Source: Planctomycetota bacterium
GTDB lineage: Bacteria > Planctomycetota > Phycisphaerae > SM23-33
Reading direction: 5' to 3'
Assembly: GCA_030635145.1 (NCBI GenBank)
Contig: DAOVZK010000015.1
Span: 1-38,843, forward strand
DNA length: 38,843 nt
In this document: in pieces, positions 9,110 through 31,622 of the stretch
Layout: the number at the start of each line of letters is the position of its first letter
Numbering within the stretch: position 1 is the stretch's first letter
Notes under the pieces: generated by a model
What the model was told of the DNA's origin: nothing
The model's input: only the letters and a program-made list of their open reading frames with translations
Databases searched by the model: none
Program-made: the position numbers and the translations under genes

Positions 9110-10729
9110 CTACTTCACGGCGCCGGGGATTTTCTCCGCGTCTTCATCGTCGGCATCGTCGGTGACCATCAGGTCGGTCGTCAGCAGCAATCCCGCGACT
9201 GATGCTGCATTTTGCAACGCCGTTCGCGAAACTTTCGCCGGATCGATAATACCAGCGGCGACCATGTCTACATACTCGCCGGTGCGGGCATTGTAACCCT
9301 TTTTGGCACCGTTTTCGAGGATGTTTGCCACGACCACGTCACCGTCGACACCTGCATTGTCGCAGATCTGACGGCATGGGGCGGTGATGGCACGTGCGAC
9401 AATGTCGACGCCGATTTTCTCGTCGCCTTTGGCTTTGCTGCGGGAGGCGTTGACGGCATCGATACATGCCAGGAACGTAACTCCGCCACCAGGAACGATA
9501 CCTTCTTCAGCGGCAGCCCGTGTTGCATGGACGGCGTCGTCGATGAGGTCTTTGCGTTCCTTCATTTCGGTTTCGGTAGCTGCACCGGCACGGATGACAG
9601 CGATACCACCGGTCAGCTTTGCCAGCCGCTCGTTGAGTTTTTCACGATCGTAATCGCTGGTGGTTTTTTCCATCTGCATGCGGATGTTGTCGATGCGGGC
9701 CTTGACGGTTTTCTTCGTACCGGCACCTTCCATGACGGTGGTGTTTTCCTTACCAACGATAATCTGTTTGGCCTGGCCCAGCTGCGAAAGCTCAATGCTC
9801 TCGAGCTTGACACCGAGCTCTTCGCTGATAACTTCACCGCCGGTTAAGGCAGCGATGTCACCGAGGATAGCTTTGCGGCGGTCGCCGAAGGCCGGAGCCT
9901 TAACCGCACAGATATTCAGCGAACCACGCAAACGGTTAACAACCAAGGCAGCTAATGCTTCGCCTTCAATATCTTCCGCAAGAATCAGCAACGGTTTGCC
10001 GCTGGTGGCGATTTTCTCGAGCAGCGGAACCAAGTCACGCAGCGACGAGAGCTTCTTTTCGTGGATGAGGATGTAGGCGTCTTCGAGGACAGCTTCCATG
10101 GTGGTGGGGTTTGTCATGAAGTACGGCGAGATGTAGCCCTTGTCGAACTGCATACCTTTGACAACTTCCAGCTCGGTCTCGATGCTCTTGCCTTCCTCGA
10201 CAGTAATTACACCGTCGGTGCCGACCTTGTCGAAACCTTCGGCGATCAACGCGCCGATGTCTTCGTTCCAGTTTGACGAGACGGTAGCGATTTTGCGAAG
10301 ATCGTCGTTGTCCTTGACCTTTTTGCTGATGTCCGCGATTTTGTCCGTGGCAGCTGCGACGGCGAGATCAATCCCACGTTTTACGCTGACAGGATTTGCA
10401 CCGGACGCGACGATTTTCAGGCCTTCCTTCATGATAGCTTCGGCCAGTACGACAGCAGTCGTCGTACCGTCACCGGCGATGTCGGAAGTTTTCGACGCGA
10501 CCTGATTGGCCATCTTTGCGCCCATGTTTTCAAACGGATTCGGTAAGTCGATGTCTTTGGAAACCGTCACACCGTCTTTTGTTACCTTCGGGCCACCGAA
10601 GGATTTTTGAAGCAGCACATTGCGGCCTGTCGGACCAAGGGTCACTTTTACCGCGGCGGCCAGCTTCGATACGCCCGCAAGGATTGCTCCTTTAGCGTCG
10701 GCGTCGTATAGCATTTGCTTTGCAGCCAT
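9110..10729 (-). CDS. groEL: Chaperonin GroEL (paralogue 1)
   Basis: This 539-residue Hsp60 forms the double-ring folding chamber that works with GroES. All ATPase landmarks are present: [17 protein letters not shown] with the conserved Asp, GDGTTTA, PGGGV and the second catalytic Asp in [10 protein letters not shown]. Instead of the usual Gly-Gly-Met tail it ends in an acidic segment [16 protein letters not shown], unlike the neighbouring paralogue. AGGAG precedes the ATG. It follows groES by 55 bases and is the likely partner in a classic groESL operon. Confidence 0.96.
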
Positions 10730-10784
10730 TTTATTCTCCTAATTTTTTAATTACTGTAAAGTATCAGTTGGTTGATGTTGGTGA

Positions 10785-11072
10785 TTAGGCAACGATGGCG
10801 AGGATGTCGGACTCACGCAGAATGACGTAGTCGTCTCCGTCGGCCTTGATTTCGGTACCGGAATATTTCCCGTAGAAAACCTCGTCGCCCTTTTTAACGC
10901 TCATTGCACCGCGTTTTCCACCGTCGAGCAACTTGCCCGGGCCGGTGGCTACGACTTTACCGCGTTGGGGTTTTTCCTGGGCACTGTCGGGAAGAACAAT
11001 GCCACCAGCTGTTACTTCTTCTGCTGCACACTGCTTTACGATTACTCTGTCGTCCAAAGGTTTAATAGCCAT
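10785..11072 (-). CDS. groES: Co-chaperonin GroES
   Basis: This 95-residue Hsp10 caps the GroEL ring. It has the family N-terminus [10 protein letters not shown], the mobile loop region [21 protein letters not shown], which contacts GroEL, and the end [15 protein letters not shown] strong AGGAGAA lies before the ATG. It is the only groES in view and sits between two groEL genes, so both chambers may share it. Confidence 0.97.
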
Positions 11073-11184
11073 TTCTATTTCTCCTGTATCTTTATAATAC
11101 TTAATCTTAGATTTATCTTTTGTTTACTCGTTTGTTTTGGGTATTTGCAGTCGCGTTATGCGATGTGTATTCCGCCGTTGCGGA

Positions 11185-12888
11185 TTACATCATCGGCATA
11201 CCGCCCATGCCGCCCATACCACCCATGCCGCCGCCCATTCCGCCCATGCCACCCATACCGCCGGGCATTCCGCCACCGGGCATACCACCCGGGGCTGCGT
11301 CTTTGGCATTGGGAGAGTCGCAAACGGTAGCGTCGCACGTCAGCAGAAGCGTTGCTACGGAGGCTGCGTTTTGTAGTGCTGAACGAGTAACTTTCGTCGG
11401 GTCGATAACACCGGCGACGACGAGGTCTTCGTACTCGAGCTTGTCGGCGTTGAAACCGAATCCGCCCTTGCCCTTGGCTACTTTGTTTAGGACGACGGCG
11501 GAGGGTTGCCCGGCGTTGTCGACGATCTGACGCAGCGGAGCGCTGAGTGCACGACGGACAATGTCACAACCTGTAGCTTCGTCGCCTTTGCATTTGCAAT
11601 TGTCCAGCACCTTGGCTGCTCTCACCAACGCCACGCCGCCACCGGGAAGAATACCTTCTTCGATAGCTGCGCGAGTTGCGTGAAGTGCATCTTCGACGCG
11701 GGTCTTCTTTTCCTTCATTTCGGTTTCGGTAGCTGCACCGACATTGATTTCAGCAACCCCGCCAGCGAGCTTCGCCAGGCGTTCCTGAAGTTTTTCGCGG
11801 TCGTAATCGCTGGTAGTCGTGGAGATTTCGCTGCGGATCATTTCGATGCGTGCTTTGATGTCGGAGGTCTTGCCGGCACCTTCGAGGATGATGGTATTGT
11901 CGTTGCCGATGCGGATACGCTTTGCAGTACCCAGTTCGCCAAGCTCGATAGTTTCCAGATCGATGCCGAGGTCCTTACTGAAGACCTTCGCACCCGTGAG
12001 AGTAGCGATATCCTGCAGCATGGCTTTGCGGCGGTCACCATAACCCGGTGCCTTGATCGCACAAACGTCAAGAACGCCACGCAGCTTGTTGACAACGAGA
12101 GTCGACAGGGCTTCGCCTTCGACATCTTCGCTGATGATCAGCAGCGGGCGTTTGGATTTGGCGGCTTTTTCCAGCAGCGGAACGATTTTCGCGATGTTGG
12201 AAATCTTTTCCTCGTTTATGAGGATAAGCGGTTTGTCCATTACGCATTCCATCGCGTCGGGATCGCTGACGAAGTGGGGGCTGAGGTAACCGCGGTCGAA
12301 CTGCATGCCTTCGACGACGTCGATGGTGGTGTCCATGCTTTTACCTTCTTCGACAGTGATAACACCGTCGGATCCGACCTTGCCCATCGCGTCGGCCAGC
12401 ATTTTGCCGATTTCGGCGTCGTTGTTGGCGCTGATGGCGGCGATGTTGCGGATGTCCTTGTCGCTGGTTTTGTCGATGGGAGTGCTCATCTTGAGCAGTT
12501 CGTCACTGATGAGGTCGACGGCCTTGCGGATACCGCGTGCCAGCGCCATTGCGTCGGCACCGGCAGCGAGGTTGCGGTAACCTTCGGCGAAGATGGCTTC
12601 AGCCAATACGGTTGCGGTGGTGGTTCCGTCACCGGCGGCGTCGGAGGTTTTGGAGGCAGCTTCTTTTACCAGCTGCGCGCCCATGTTTTCTTTTTTGTCC
12701 TTGAGTTCGATTTCTTCAGCTACGGTGACTCCGTCTTTCGTGACGGTCGGTGCACCCCAGCCCTTGTCCAAAATCGCACATCGCCCACGCGGGCCCAAAG
12801 TACTTTTTACTGCACGGGCAAGCTTCTGCACGCCTGTGAGTAATGCTTCTCGGGCCTCTGTGTCAAATGCCAGTTGTTTAGCTGCCAT
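11185..12888 (-). CDS. groEL: Chaperonin GroEL (paralogue 2, Gly-Met-rich tail)
   Basis: This 567-residue Hsp60 has the same ATPase elements as paralogue 1 ([32 protein letters not shown]) but clearly diverged apical and tail sequences. Its last 35 residues or so are repeats of GGM with proline (GGMGGMGG and similar). This is a long version of the tail that lines the folding chamber in most GroELs. AAAGGAGA precedes the ATG. It is the first gene of the chaperone block, 112 bases before groES. The two groELs probably divide client proteins or growth conditions. Confidence 0.95.
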
Positions 12889-14916: not shown

Positions 14917-14987
14917 CATGCGAGAGTACCAGATATTAGACACTAAACGTCAGAGGTTTTGTTTCTTTCTATTGCCTTGTCCCTAAT

Positions 14988-18774: not shown

Positions 18775-18824
18775 CGAAACTAGGCAATAGGGATTAGTGA
18801 CCAGGCACTAGGAAGAAAAATTTC

Positions 18825-24090: not shown

Positions 24091-24477
24091 TTACGACCTC
24101 TTTTTTAATTAACGTCCTCGTACGAACTTTGTCGCCCCTACTTCAACGCTGGGGCAATAAATACAAATTCCTATACAATAAACTTTCTGATGCTCACTGC
24201 CACCTGTCCTGGTAGCTCGTAACTTCCATATTCTCAGCATTCCTCAGTTTTCAATGACTGCTGATGGGCCTCCACGAGCCAACCAGCCACGTTTTTATCG
24301 GATTCAAAACCACAAACATGCAAGATTCGTCGAAAGAGATTCGGAAAAATATCGCTCGCAAAATCCGCCTGTTAAAATGGGCAATTTGTGCAATTCCCAC
24401 CGCCAAAATCGCGATTTCTTTCAGGCCCGACATACGCCCCGCTTGAATTTGACACGCCGAATCCTTACTCTCTCGTA
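24091..24477. other. Gene-free interval between the sigma gene and recO
   Basis: Short open frames here have no family features or ribosome-binding sites. A TTGACA lies at 24449-24454 but no acceptable -10 follows at 16-18 bases. The interval probably carries divergent promoters for the sigma factor and recO that cannot be placed with confidence. Confidence 0.4.
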
Positions 24478-25242
24478 ATGCGGCATCGAGAAATGGGAAT
24501 CTGTTTGAAGACGGTAGACTACAGCGAAACTTCGCAGGTGGTCTACTTTCTTACGCGCGATGCTGGTGTCGTAAACCTGATGGCAAAGGGCACAAAACGC
24601 CCAAAAAGCAAATCCGGCGGGGCAATCGACCTGCTCGCCGAGGGGCAGGTGGTCTTCTCGCAAAAAAATCCCGAAACCCTGGGGCTGCTCATGGAATTTT
24701 CGGAGACCGTTTCGCGTACCCCCTTACGGCGGGATGCAAGACGGTTAAACGTATCGCTTTACATGATCGAGCTGATCGGCAAAATGCTCCCCGAGGGCGA
24801 CCCGCACCCGTCGGTGTTTGACTTGCTGCACAATGCGTTGGAGCGTTTAGGCCAAAACGACGCCCCGCCGCAAGCGGTGCTGGCGTTTTTTCAGTGGCGA
24901 TTTTTGCGGCACATCGGACTGCTGGGCCAACTCAACACCTGTGCGAGTTGCCAAGCGAATATATGCGAAATTCCCCCAGATGCGGGACTCTATTTTTCGT
25001 CGCAACAGGGCGGAATTCTCTGCCCGCACTGCCACGCCCCCACCAACGAAAAATTCCGCATCACCCCGCCCTGCCTCGCCGGAATCGGTGCACTACTAAC
25101 CGTAACAAAGGGCCAAAAGGCTACCCTCCCCGAAACCCAAGCTGTTGAGGTTAACCGCTTATTGGGATACCATATCACCCATCAGCTCGGTAGGCCGTTG
25201 AAAATGACGAAATATGTGATAAGCACAGGCACTAGGGAATAG
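24478..25242 (+). CDS. recO: DNA repair protein RecO
   Basis: This 254-residue protein works with RecR to load RecA at gaps. It has the N-terminal OB fold (LKTVDYSETSQVVYFLTRDAGVVNLMAKG...KSGGAIDLLAEGQVVF), a helical middle and a zinc finger with CASC and CPHC knuckles. The frame opens at 24388, but ATG 24478 gives MRHREMGICLKT, which fits the family, whereas the extra 30 residues do not. No clear ribosome-binding site is seen. Confidence 0.85.
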   Translation: MRHREMGICLKTVDYSETSQVVYFLTRDAGVVNLMAKGTKRPKSKSGGAIDLLAEGQVVFSQKNPETLGLLMEFSETVSRTPLRRDARRLNVSLYMIELIGKMLPEGDPHPSVFDLLHNALERLGQNDAPPQAVLAFFQWRFLRHIGLLGQLNTCASCQANICEIPPDAGLYFSSQQGGILCPHCHAPTNEKFRITPPCLAGIGALLTVTKGQKATLPETQAVEVNRLLGYHITHQLGRPLKMTKYVISTGTRE

Positions 25243-25292
25243 AGATTAGGCAATAGGAAGAAGTGCCTAGCTCCTAGTGCCTAATCCCTGAT
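25228..25292. repeat. Short AGGCACTAGG / CTAATCCCTG repeat cluster
   Basis: AGGCACTAGGGAATAGAGATTAGGCAATAGG is followed by its approximate reverse complement GTGCCTAGCTCCTAGTGCCTAATCCCT. The same words occur singly at 18783-18811. It spans the recO/permease junction and can fold into a hairpin. Confidence 0.65.
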
Positions 25293-25300
25293 TGATAATT

Positions 25301-26995
25301 ATGAAACTACCAGACGAACAATTTGGATTCAGGCTTTCGAGGAAGCATGTTTTCTACGACGTTTTTGCCGTGGCGATACTGGGGCTGATGACGTTTATGA
25401 TGCTTCGCAGCGCATTGCAGATTGAGTATGAATCGCAGCTGCGGATTCCGAGGATATTGGCTGGGGCGGGCTTACCGGCGGCTGTGGGATTTTTGCTTGC
25501 GCTGCGGTACGGGGTGGTTGATCTTAGCGTTTGGGCAGTAATGGGCCTCGGTGGGCTGGTGGCGGCGGGGTGCATAAACGCCGGGCTGTCACCCTGGATC
25601 GCATTCGTCATCGCCGTGGGAACAGGAGCAACAATCGGTGCGATCAACGCGCTGCTGGTGTCGCGAATTCGCCTGCCGGGAATTATCATCACCGCGGTAG
25701 TCGCCTTGATTTTGCTCGGTGCGATGAACTGGATTTACCCTCAGCGCAGCGTCGCCGTGCCGGAAACAACATTCGATAACTGGGTGTCCAACATCCACGC
25801 TTTTTCCGATGCCGCGAACAATGGGCTGGAGCAAATAACACCTTCGCAGGACGACCAAAAACCAATCACACACCCCGGTGTCATCTCCGGGCCGTTGGTA
25901 TTAATGCGTATGCTGATAGTCATCATCGCGTGGGCAGCGGTTTTGTTCGTGCTTGGAGTCACCGACAATATCGTCCCGAAAAAGTCGCATCCACCCAGCC
26001 CGCGCAAGTTGCGGGCCTTGTGCCTCTGCGTATGCGGCGCGATGGCCGCCCTCAGCGGGGCCTGCTGGTTGATGGAATTGGGCGACACACCCGTTCCGAC
26101 ACGACTGATCGACGAATTCACGATTCCCGCAGCTGTGATTCTTACCGGCACGTTGCTGCTGCAAGGGCGAGGCCGAACAATGCTGGCGGTAATGTTTCTC
26201 CCGGCTGCGATGCTGTGCGCGAGTATCGGGAAACAAACCGTCTACCCCATCACCACGTACGGATATTCGCTACAGCTGCTGGTATTGGGTGCAATCGTGC
26301 TGACTGCCCAGTGGGCATACGTTCGCGGGTGCGACAAATCGTGCAAATACCGCTGGTTCTACCGGGCGGGGTGCGGGTTGGCGGTGGTTGGGCTTGTTGT
26401 TGCAGGGTTCCCCACACAGCTGGGCGTGGGGAACGCAAAAGCAATCTTCCTCAGCGGTGTGGGAATTTCATCTGCGAGCTTGGTACTGATTATCGTCTTG
26501 GGTATCATCTCGCATATAACGCGCAAAGACGACCCGAAGAAAACATCCACCACCATGCACAAAACCTACAAAACAAACTCGCCCGCAGAAACGCACGCCC
26601 TGGCCGCCGAACTGGGCGCAACGCTGACAACCGGAGACTGCATCGCGCTTGTCGGAAATCTCGGAGCCGGTAAAACCGCGTTCGTCCGAGGGCTCGCCGA
26701 CGGGATCGGCTGCGATGTTCAGCTGGTTTCTAGCCCAACCTACGTGCTCGTTCAGGAATATACCTGCCCCAACGACAAGCACATTCCGATATACCATCTC
26801 GATTTGTACCGGCTGGGCAACCCGGTTGAGGAGTTCGACGACCTTGGGGTAGACGAGATGCTGACCAACGGTGCGGTGGTAATAGAGTGGGCCGACCTGG
26901 CCGCCGAGGTTCTCCCCCGCCCCCACACACAAATTGCCATAGACATCGACGGGCCCGACGCTCGCAGCTGGACAATATCACGCATAGACAATTGA
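25301..26995 (+). CDS. Fusion: RbsC-like membrane permease domain + TsaE ATPase
   Basis: This is a single frame of 564 residues. The N-terminal ~410 residues hold about nine or ten hydrophobic helices in the two-half layout of ribose/branched-chain ABC permeases: VVDLSVWAVMGLGGLVAAG, ALLVSRIRLPGIIITAVV, then ELGDTPVPTRLIDEFTIPAAVILTGTLLLQGRGR. No transporter ATPase or binding protein is nearby. From Met at 26555 the last 146 residues are complete TsaE: P-loop GNLGAGKT, SSPTYVLVQEY, YHLDLYRLG and VVIEWAD. TsaE makes tRNA t6A with TsaBCD. The join has no stop; an internal start at 26555, with a weak ribosome-binding site, could also yield free TsaE. Confidence 0.8.
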   Translation: MKLPDEQFGFRLSRKHVFYDVFAVAILGLMTFMMLRSALQIEYESQLRIPRILAGAGLPAAVGFLLALRYGVVDLSVWAVMGLGGLVAAGCINAGLSPWIAFVIAVGTGATIGAINALLVSRIRLPGIIITAVVALILLGAMNWIYPQRSVAVPETTFDNWVSNIHAFSDAANNGLEQITPSQDDQKPITHPGVISGPLVLMRMLIVIIAWAAVLFVLGVTDNIVPKKSHPPSPRKLRALCLCVCGAMAALSGACWLMELGDTPVPTRLIDEFTIPAAVILTGTLLLQGRGRTMLAVMFLPAAMLCASIGKQTVYPITTYGYSLQLLVLGAIVLTAQWAYVRGCDKSCKYRWFYRAGCGLAVVGLVVAGFPTQLGVGNAKAIFLSGVGISSASLVLIIVLGIISHITRKDDPKKTSTTMHKTYKTNSPAETHALAAELGATLTTGDCIALVGNLGAGKTAFVRGLADGIGCDVQLVSSPTYVLVQEYTCPNDKHIPIYHLDLYRLGNPVEEFDDLGVDEMLTNGAVVIEWADLAAEVLPRPHTQIAIDIDGPDARSWTISRIDN

Positions 26996-27047: not shown

Positions 27048-27935
27048 ATGGATAAAGCAATTCAAAAAGCAGCGACGCTGATCGAGGCGTTGACGTATAT
27101 TCAGCGATACAACGGCAAGGTCGTTGTGATCAAATTCGGCGGGTCTGTGATGGATTCTCCGGAGGCGATGCGGAATATTCTCACCGATGTTGTGTTCATG
27201 AACACCGTCGGAATGAAACCGGTGCTGGTACACGGCGGGGGAAAAGCAATTTCCAACGCCATGGACGAGCGGGGCCTGGAGGTTCAGTTCGTTAAAGGGC
27301 GGCGATACACCGACCAGCGAACACTGACCGTCGTTGAGCATGTGCTATGCAACGAAGTTAATACCGGCATCGTCGACACGATTGAATCGCTGGGTTGTCG
27401 GGCGATGGGAATGCATACGCTCAGCAGCTGCGTGCAGTTTGGCGAGAGACTTTACTTAGACGAGGACGGCAAGAAAATCGACCTCGGTTTTGTCGGGCAG
27501 ATCACGCGGGTTAATTCGGAGTTGTTGCACTTGCTGTGCGAGGCGGGAACCATTCCGGTTATCGCTCCGCTGGCGCGCGACAGGGCGGGGCAAAAACTCA
27601 ACTGCAACGCCGACACCGCCGCCGGTGAAATCGCCGCCGCCCTGGGGGCCGAGAAGTTTGTGGTTATATCCGACACGCACGGAATACGCCAAAACGTCGA
27701 CGACCCCGACAGCATGATTCCCTCGATTACCGAGACGGAAATTCGCAAGCTGATCGCAGACGGAACAATCTCCAGCGGGATGCTCCCGAAAGTCGAAGCC
27801 TGCTTGCGGGCACTGGACGCGGGTGTCAAACGGTCGCACATTATCGACGGGCGAACACCGCACTCGCTGCTGCTGGAAATATTCTCGGACAAGGGCATCG
27901 GAACCCTGATCCGCAAAGATGATGACGGAAAGTAA
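27048..27935 (+). CDS. argB: Acetylglutamate kinase
   Basis: This 295-residue enzyme phosphorylates N-acetylglutamate in arginine synthesis. It has the amino-acid-kinase features VVVIKFGGSVMD, PVLVHGGGKAIS, LNCNADTAAGEIAAAL and VVISDTHGI, and ISSGMLPKVEACL near the end, where it binds substrate. It lies 30 bases before argF; argC, argJ and argD are not in the window. Confidence 0.97.
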   Translation: MDKAIQKAATLIEALTYIQRYNGKVVVIKFGGSVMDSPEAMRNILTDVVFMNTVGMKPVLVHGGGKAISNAMDERGLEVQFVKGRRYTDQRTLTVVEHVLCNEVNTGIVDTIESLGCRAMGMHTLSSCVQFGERLYLDEDGKKIDLGFVGQITRVNSELLHLLCEAGTIPVIAPLARDRAGQKLNCNADTAAGEIAAALGAEKFVVISDTHGIRQNVDDPDSMIPSITETEIRKLIADGTISSGMLPKVEACLRALDAGVKRSHIIDGRTPHSLLLEIFSDKGIGTLIRKDDDGK

Positions 27936-27965: not shown

Positions 27966-28895
27966 ATGATCAAAGATTTTATCACGCTTGAACAGTTCAA
28001 CACCGGCCAACTCGAAAATCTTATCGAACGCACGATTGCCGACAAGAAGCTGTACCTCGCCGGTAAGGGCTCTGCCCCGCTTACGCGCCAAACACTGGCG
28101 ATGATCTTCGAGAAACCGTCGCTGCGAACACGCGTGAGCTTTGAAGTCGCCATGACCCAACTTGGCGGTGCGGCGACGTATCTCGACCAGACGTCCATCG
28201 GGCTTGGCACGCGAGAATCGGCAAGCGATACCGCCTGCGTATTGGCCAAAATGTGCGACGGAATCATGGCACGCACCTTCAGCCATAAAATGGTGGAAGA
28301 CCTCGCGAAATACTCCGACATACCCGTCGTCAACGGACTGACCGACTATTCGCACCCCTGCCAGGCGATGGCCGACATGGTCACCGTCCACGAACACTTC
28401 GGTAAGCTCAAAGGCAAAACCCTCACGTTTGTCGGTGACGGAAACAACGTCGCACGAAGCCTCGCCACCGCATGTGCCAAACTCGGAATGCGATTTATCC
28501 TGTCGTGCCCACACAATTATGAGCTTGAGGAGAAATTCTTCGAAGACCTGCTCGACAAACACCCCAAGGCCGACAGCCTCGTGCTCCACGAACCAGGCCT
28601 CGCCGTCAAAGAAGCCGACGTCATCTACACCGACACATGGATCTCGATGGGCCAGGAAGAAGAGAAGTCCAAACGGCTGCACATTTTCCGCAACTATCAG
28701 GTAAACGCACAGCTGTTGTCGCTGGCACCGAAACACGCAATCGTCCTGCACTGCCTACCGGCATATCGCGATTACGAAATCACCGACGAAGCCTTCGACG
28801 CCAACGCCACGCATATTTTCAACGAGGCCGAAAACCGACTGCACTTCCAACGCACGCTGTTAAATGTGCTGATGGCAGAAGGCGGAATCGAATAG
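27966..28895 (+). CDS. argF: Ornithine carbamoyltransferase
   Basis: This 309-residue enzyme makes citrulline from ornithine and carbamoyl phosphate. The carbamoyl-phosphate site is EKPSLRTRVSFE; the further landmarks are DYSHPCQAMADMVT, FVGDGNNVARSL, and HCLPAYRDYEI, whose Cys is catalytic. The ending FQRTLLNVLMAEGG is typical. It is in one operon with argB. Confidence 0.97.
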   Translation: MIKDFITLEQFNTGQLENLIERTIADKKLYLAGKGSAPLTRQTLAMIFEKPSLRTRVSFEVAMTQLGGAATYLDQTSIGLGTRESASDTACVLAKMCDGIMARTFSHKMVEDLAKYSDIPVVNGLTDYSHPCQAMADMVTVHEHFGKLKGKTLTFVGDGNNVARSLATACAKLGMRFILSCPHNYELEEKFFEDLLDKHPKADSLVLHEPGLAVKEADVIYTDTWISMGQEEEKSKRLHIFRNYQVNAQLLSLAPKHAIVLHCLPAYRDYEITDEAFDANATHIFNEAENRLHFQRTLLNVLMAEGGIE

Positions 28896-29807: not shown

Positions 29808-31622
29808 ATGAAACAAAAACGATTACTGACCCTGTTAATTGCGATTGTTGTGTTAAATGGGTTCTCAACAACCGCTGTTGCCGACAAAGTAATGTTGTCA
29901 AATAAGCATGACAGCAAAACCGTCACCGCTACCGTGGGCGACGAGATTGTCCTTCGGTTAAAGGGAAATCCCACGACCGGTTATCAGTGGATGCTCGATG
30001 ACCTTGCAGGTAAAAGCGCCAAGCCCGATGGGATCATCAAATACGAAGCCATCGACAGTGCCAAGCGTGTGGGGGCAGGCGGGTTTTTCATCGCTCGCTT
30101 CAAGGCGGTTAAGGCTGGTAAGACGACGTTTAAACTCGTTTACGCTCGGCCTTGGGAAAAAGACAAAAAACCCGACGAAGTTTTCCTCGTGACCCTGGAT
30201 GTCAAAAAGGTGAAAAAACGCCCCGTCAAGAAAATCGAGGCGAAGTATCTCACCCACTCTCACGGGAAAATGGAAGGCAAGCGAAGTATTGCCGGTAGCG
30301 GGCACGGGGTGGTTTTTGAAACTCCCAAGGGCAACCAAAAGTTAATCGCCGTCCAGATTTTCGCCGCCCGATACGGCACGCGCAAGGCCCCCAACGAAAG
30401 CTTCTACCTCTACCTCCTCGAAGAAGACGGGGAAACGATTATCAAGAGCTTCAAGTTTCCGTACTCGCTCATCAAACGCGGCAAAATGAAATGGTATCTG
30501 TTGGACATTCCGCCCACCCGTGTGCCGCAAAAAATTTTCGTGGCCCTGTCGTTTAATCCCACACAAACCAAGGGCGTATACCTTGGGTATACTAAAACCG
30601 ACGCGGTGAGTTTTTCCCGAGTCGGCCTACCAGAGAGAGGGTTAAGACCTGTTCGCAAGCCTATTGAATGGATGGTGCGGGCATTCTTTCAGGCACCGAA
30701 AGCAGCGGCGCCAAAACCCAAAAATCCGCAAGTGATTTTCGTCTCCCCAACCCCCATGACCAACAATGTCGATCCAAAAACCAACAAAATCGTCATCAAA
30801 TTCGATCGCCCAATGATGCCCAAAAGCTTTTCGTGGATGGGTGGAGGCGATAGTTTCCCGAAACTGTCTGGTCGCCCGTTTTACGACCAGAAGCTAACCA
30901 CATGTACGTTGCCGGTGAAGCTCGAACCGGGGCATGTCTACTGGGTGGGCGTCAATAGTCCAACCCACAAATACTTTCAGACGAAAGACAAGACCCCCGC
31001 CGACCGCTACGTGATTCTCTTCGCCACGAAAGACAAAAACGACAAGCCCACCGCGATACCGAAGGATCTTGTCGAAAAAGCCAAGCGAATAAACGCAGCC
31101 TCACCTGTCACCGCTATCCAGGCAAACAAGAAACTCTCACGCAAACTCACCGCCAAAGGTTGGAAACTTTGGAAGCAGAAGAAATTCTTAGAGGCCGAGG
31201 AGTTTTTCGCAGAAGCCGTCAAAAAAGATCCTAAAAACGCCGATGCCTGGAACGGGCTGGGGTGGTCAAACCTTAATCAGAACAAGCGGCGTGATGCACG
31301 CTTCGATTTTAAGAAATGCCTCGCCCTTGACCCAAAAAATTCCGCTGCCCTCCACGGGATGGGATGGATATCCAAAGGCCAGGGCAAAACCGACGCCGCC
31401 ATCGCCTTTTGGGAGCGTTCACTCAAGGCTTCGCCAAACGCCACCGGCGCCATGACCGGGCTGGCGTCGACGTATTTTGAGCAAAAGGATTATAAGCAGG
31501 CGGTGCTGTACTACAACATGTGGTTGAAGGTTGAGCCTGAAAATGCCACCGCCAAAGCGGGGCTGAAAAAGGCCCGGGCGGCACGGCGGAAAGCTGAGCA
31601 ACGCAAGGCAAACAATAAGTAG
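29808..31622 (+). CDS. Exported protein: chagasin-like (I42) inhibitor domain, Ig-like domain and TPR repeats
   Basis: This 604-residue protein has a signal peptide (MKQKRLLTLLIAIVVLNGFSTTAVA). Residues about 30-130 carry the chagasin/I42 pattern: GNPTTGYQW, then VGAGGFFIARFKAVKAGKTTFKLVYARPWE. That domain blocks papain-like cysteine proteases. A middle section includes SPTPMTNNVDPKTNKIVIKFDRPM, an Ig-like (Big_5-type) strand pattern. From about residue 440, TPR units read AWNGLGWSNLNQ, ALHGMGWISKGQGKTDAAIAFWERSLKA and AMTGLASTYFEQKDYKQAVLYYN. The protein is probably periplasmic or surface-bound. GGAG precedes the ATG. Confidence 0.82.
   Translation: MKQKRLLTLLIAIVVLNGFSTTAVADKVMLSNKHDSKTVTATVGDEIVLRLKGNPTTGYQWMLDDLAGKSAKPDGIIKYEAIDSAKRVGAGGFFIARFKAVKAGKTTFKLVYARPWEKDKKPDEVFLVTLDVKKVKKRPVKKIEAKYLTHSHGKMEGKRSIAGSGHGVVFETPKGNQKLIAVQIFAARYGTRKAPNESFYLYLLEEDGETIIKSFKFPYSLIKRGKMKWYLLDIPPTRVPQKIFVALSFNPTQTKGVYLGYTKTDAVSFSRVGLPERGLRPVRKPIEWMVRAFFQAPKAAAPKPKNPQVIFVSPTPMTNNVDPKTNKIVIKFDRPMMPKSFSWMGGGDSFPKLSGRPFYDQKLTTCTLPVKLEPGHVYWVGVNSPTHKYFQTKDKTPADRYVILFATKDKNDKPTAIPKDLVEKAKRINAASPVTAIQANKKLSRKLTAKGWKLWKQKKFLEAEEFFAEAVKKDPKNADAWNGLGWSNLNQNKRRDARFDFKKCLALDPKNSAALHGMGWISKGQGKTDAAIAFWERSLKASPNATGAMTGLASTYFEQKDYKQAVLYYNMWLKVEPENATAKAGLKKARAARRKAEQRKANNK

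Follow-up and report, generated by a model that had tools for sequence, protein, structure and literature searches.

Can TsaE, an ATPase that is normally a lone soluble protein of about 150 residues and is essential in most bacteria tested, be carried on a membrane protein? The question is raised by a locus at positions 25301 to 26995 of a 38,843-nucleotide stretch of planctomycete DNA (hereafter the window), where a membrane domain runs into a TsaE domain on the plus strand. This stretch makes up contig 4 of a draft metagenome genome of 2.38 Mb in 90 contigs, 93% complete. The reading that we prefer, with a probability of about 0.6, is a lineage-specific end-to-end fusion between a membrane gene and tsaE, in which the membrane part would anchor a TsaE that keeps its ordinary role. 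If real, this would place an essential and normally soluble tRNA-modification ATPase on a polytopic membrane protein, although the weight of the case is limited to that of one draft genome.

A single open frame with two halves

The frame opens with the ATG at 25301 and runs to 26995 as 564 codons with no internal stop; starting from the alternative TTG at 25292 it would give 567 residues. The original prediction of a membrane domain of some 410 residues, continuing without a stop into a complete TsaE, thus holds in the assembled DNA. The membrane domain and its linker occupy 418 codons (25301 to 26554), as delimited by a match to PF02653, hydropathy, AlphaFold2 and the alignment of relatives. 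The remaining 146 residues (26555 to 26992, residues 419-564), which were delimited by PF02367 and by alignment with stand-alone TsaE, match both PF02367 and TIGR00150 over their full length. The codon-position GC pattern is unchanged across the join. All the neighbours considered here are on the same strand: recO (24388 to 25242; PF02565/PF11967) ends 58 nt before the ATG of the fusion, and argB (acetylglutamate kinase, 27048 to 27935; PF00696) and argF (ornithine carbamoyltransferase, 27966 to 28895; PF00185/PF02729) follow it. A repeat scan found an 18-nt inverted repeat in the interval between recO and the fusion (25241 to 25289), 89% complementary and with a 13-nt loop. It is one copy of a short interspersed repeat resembling TAGTGCCTAATCCCT, which lies in or near intergenic stretches and has 6 matches in the window against 0.45 expected, other copies being at 14931-14984 and 18789-18810.

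The TsaE half matches the Pfam model PF02367 at residues 426-549 with about 120-124 bits (cut-off 26.6, E 6.3e-35) and the NCBIfam equivalog model TIGR00150 with about 95-99 bits (cut-off 60.1). It has the Walker A motif GNLGAGKT, the H-x-D-x-Y-R switch segment as HLDLYRL and the E-W Walker B region as IEWAD. It is 52-59% identical to seven stand-alone relatives, with every invariant column kept, and its nearest solved structures are the TsaE entries 5mvr and 5np9 of the PDB (E 3e-27), with whose chains the motifs align. This ORF is the only one in the genome with a TsaE match above the cut-off, so that the search for a second tsaE, suggested with the original prediction, returned none. A TsaD (317 bits), a TsaB-like match and thiL are found elsewhere in the genome, the last away from the fusion. 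Given a single TsaE and its essentiality, the protein is very probably supplied by this ORF, although the 7% or so of the genome that is missing might encode a second copy. The domain resembles TsaE (YjeE), the ATPase subunit of the bacterial t6A complex TsaD-TsaB-TsaE, in its full length, invariant residues, single copy and the presence of TsaD elsewhere. It differs in that the usual form is stand-alone and soluble whereas here it is the C-terminal domain of a 564-residue membrane protein, in a frame continuous with 12 predicted transmembrane segments. Stand-alone solubility is however a descriptive rather than a defining trait of TsaE, since fusions with ThiL and YacG exist (see below).

Hydropathy predicts that these 12 segments have both ends inside. 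The AlphaFold2 model of the membrane domain, built with five relatives, has a mean pLDDT of 75 and places the last helix at residues 376-409; from residue 411 the pLDDT falls below 50, as for an unstructured linker. This linker (HITRKDDPKKTSTT, 26513 to 26554) is a positively charged tail of about 15 residues, delimited by the alignment of 19 proteins and by pLDDT, and predicted to be cytosolic. In the same alignment the relatives' membrane proteins, 32-40% identical to the window protein over the whole domain, stop a few residues past the last helix, where the linker begins. Their C-terminal tails are basic, like that of the window protein (HITRKDDPKK, then TsaE). Twelve helices with basic ends predict cytosolic termini, and the tail of the membrane domain is therefore probably, according to these models, on the side where TsaE must meet TsaD-TsaB.

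The membrane half had been called RbsC-like, which holds only as a weak match. It is the only ORF of the genome that matches PF02653 (BPD_transp_2), at residues 60-333 with 40.5 bits (cut-off 26.8, E about 1.5e-10 to 2.4e-10), and its DLSVW motif lies near the GIDLSVG region of RbsC. On the other hand, only 5 of the 18 members of the membrane-protein family match the model and the comparison with the fold of type II ABC importers is not significant (best ABC match 2nq2_A, probability 0.66, TM 0.48 by target, E 1.2). Fold searches with the whole fusion and with the membrane domain alone gave no significant match, and a PDB sequence search with the membrane family gave no credible one. The protein shares with BPD_transp_2 permeases such as RbsC and GguB a weak match above the cut-off and a multi-helix membrane architecture, but unlike them it has neither a PF13407 partner in the genome nor an adjoining ATPase. 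PF13407, a sugar-type periplasmic binding protein and the only binding-protein family searched, has no match in the genome, where there are 23 matches to ABC ATPases. That no transporter ATPase lies nearby was confirmed, the fusion being the only ORF of the window with a Walker A motif. A motif scan, which was not exhaustive, showed no complete ABC ATPase either within the window or around the relatives' membrane genes, where one truncated P-loop ORF was seen at a contig end (L041). In the class sample, strong matches to the profile of the membrane family are confined to the Phycisphaerae family of this genome and weaker ones occur in a neighbouring family; weak matches elsewhere in the sample are taken to be ordinary sugar permeases. 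The relatives (L033-L052) and window positions 25301-26554 represent a family-restricted orphan membrane protein that is weakly PF02653-like.

Gene order in relatives and other TsaE fusions

In 60 relatives the membrane and TsaE halves match separate places. TsaE is present in 32 of the 35 genomes of the family sample and is fused to the membrane protein only in the window genome. Searches of 35 genomes of the family, 397 of the class and 392 of the phylum showed no other instance of the fusion. A scan of named genomes gave no match to the fusion and only stand-alone relatives of the membrane family, the named records of relatives being from Phycisphaerae, Phycisphaerales and other Planctomycetota. 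Two separate genes in relatives had been put forward as evidence against the fusion. In every relative with both genes they are indeed separate, but they are also unlinked and lie at different genomic places, which favours a lineage-specific fusion and does not in itself prove an error.

The fetched neighbourhoods show how the two genes are usually placed. In relatives tsaE typically follows argH-thiL and is often followed by argB-argF-rph. The window keeps argB-argF-rph downstream of tsaE and has recO and the membrane gene in place of argH-thiL. The relatives' membrane gene mostly follows genes for etfB-etfA-acyl-CoA dehydrogenase and adjoins prfB (enzyme names come in part from reading the sequences), and in a sister genome (G030) it follows rph-rdgB. 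In trees both halves are placed near the same genomes, which is consistent with vertical descent, and neither branch is unusually long. Long frames upstream of TsaE in several other genomes (G037, G214, G046, G047, G088, G691, G695 and others) turned out, when checked, to be spurious products of high GC.

We propose that a family-specific orphan membrane gene was relocated directly before tsaE, where argH-thiL usually lies, and that the stop between the two was lost in frame. The resulting protein would cross the membrane with about 12 helices and carry, behind a short basic linker, a complete TsaE facing the cytosol. In the published cycle TsaE binds TsaD-TsaB as an ATP-bound monomer, stimulates the complex and departs after hydrolysis (PMC9654439). 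A flexible tether would in principle be compatible with this cycle: the tethered TsaE would dock ATP-bound on TsaD-TsaB and reset it whenever a round of t6A37 synthesis ends, while the membrane part would serve as a passive anchor, and some free TsaE might perhaps arise from initiation at 26555. The uninterrupted frame, the full-length TsaE, the single tsaE and the predicted cytosolic C-terminus bring the membrane-tethered TsaE of the original prediction as far as plausibility. Our literature searches on TsaE, which covered fusions, membrane association and YacG, retrieved no report of a membrane fusion. If real, the protein would mean that TsaE withstands being tethered to a membrane by its N-terminus, and it would raise the question of whether t6A synthesis can occur there.

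Fusions of TsaE with other partners are found in the same phylum. Two separate lineages of Planctomycetota have genuine in-frame fusions of thiamine-phosphate kinase with TsaE (ThiL-TsaE; G097, L127:2127-3470, and G514, L137:1412-2719), neither of which has an ATG where the two parts meet. In five Phycisphaerae genomes (L129, L131, L132, L133 and L134) TsaE has a C-terminal YacG-like zinc-finger domain, for which the match is strongest in L132 (PF03884, E 4e-16) and weaker in the others, several being below the Pfam cut-off. Hence, tsaE tolerates fusion, and is often flush against its neighbour and sometimes fused with it. As in the window, TsaE is in frame with another gene in these proteins, and ThiL is its usual neighbour, but their partners are soluble and none has a membrane domain. 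In terms of gene order, the window fusion would be a tidy example of the fusion of neighbouring genes, and within the phylum tsaE has fused with two or more further partners.

Possible alternatives: lost stop, internal start or coupling

The main rival to a genuine fusion, in our opinion unlikely but to be taken seriously, is that the locus holds two abutting and translationally coupled genes, and that one wrong base or indel in the consensus or assembly removed the stop between them. Relatives give this idea some substance, as their tsaE lies directly behind another gene. Gaps between thiL and tsaE are commonly of -4 to +16 nt, and in three genomes (G008, G028 and G034) the thiL stop directly precedes the tsaE ATG, in frame, with nothing else between. 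Furthermore, the join falls exactly at the native start of TsaE and the ATG is retained: that at 26555 aligns with the first residue of the relatives' stand-alone TsaE (MHKTYKTNSPAETHALA against MEQIFKTQSPAETHALG). The draft state of the genome and the lack of a second genome with the fusion in the family, class and phylum samples point the same way. Yet, scans of the window recovered its identified conserved genes as open frames, and obvious indel errors were not seen in them, which lowers the probability of a consensus error without removing it, and the continuity of codon-position GC across the join also speaks for one frame. Because of the out-of-frame stops that precede the join, an indel error would have to lie within or just past a conserved transmembrane helix. 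Finally, such fusions do occur, as is seen from the independent ThiL-TsaE proteins, which have no ATG at the boundary.

It is improbable, if the frame is truly open, that TsaE is made mainly or only from the internal in-frame ATG at 26555 to 26557, the long fusion being minor or non-functional. The conservation of this ATG at the native position and the often tight coupling of the relatives' tsaE to the preceding gene are compatible with a separate start. A Shine-Dalgarno sequence is absent before it, the scan for anti-SD pairing giving -1.0 kcal/mol, a value equalled or bettered by 66% of the ATGs of the window. This is weak evidence against internal initiation because the start at 25301 has no Shine-Dalgarno sequence either. 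With no stop in the frame, termination-reinitiation could not help, and both ThiL-TsaE fusions are without a boundary ATG, so that a C-terminal TsaE can suffice.

A membrane-anchored TsaE might also be more than anchored. It is very unlikely, in our view, that t6A synthesis is under the control of the membrane domain, or that this domain is itself regulated by the ATP cycle of TsaE; if true, tRNA modification would be linked to a signal from the membrane or from a solute. We give even less credit to a functional coupling, whereby ATP hydrolysis by TsaE would drive the membrane domain or gate it, or the latter would control t6A synthesis as the sensor of a solute: the two are physically fused in the assembled frame and the membrane domain has no ABC ATPase or PF13407 binding protein that was recognized as its partner, but TsaE has no ABC signature, the fusion is in a single genome, and the other TsaE fusions join unrelated neighbours (ThiL, YacG), as expected from the fusion of adjacent genes and not from selection for coupling. 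The relatives' membrane protein is moreover an orphan, with no TsaE and, in the motif scan, no complete ABC ATPase next to it, so that its ancestral function cannot have depended on TsaE. Hence, the permease driven or gated by TsaE of the original prediction finds no support, the name of permease being itself a weak one.

Other genes of the window

Two further loci of the window deserve mention. On the minus strand, positions 9110-12888 hold two chaperonin-like ORFs of one cluster, of 539 and 567 residues, the first of which matches PF00118, and a 95-residue ORF between them that may be groES. On the plus strand, at 29808-31622, a chagasin-type peptidase inhibitor domain (PF09394) is joined to a long TPR array.
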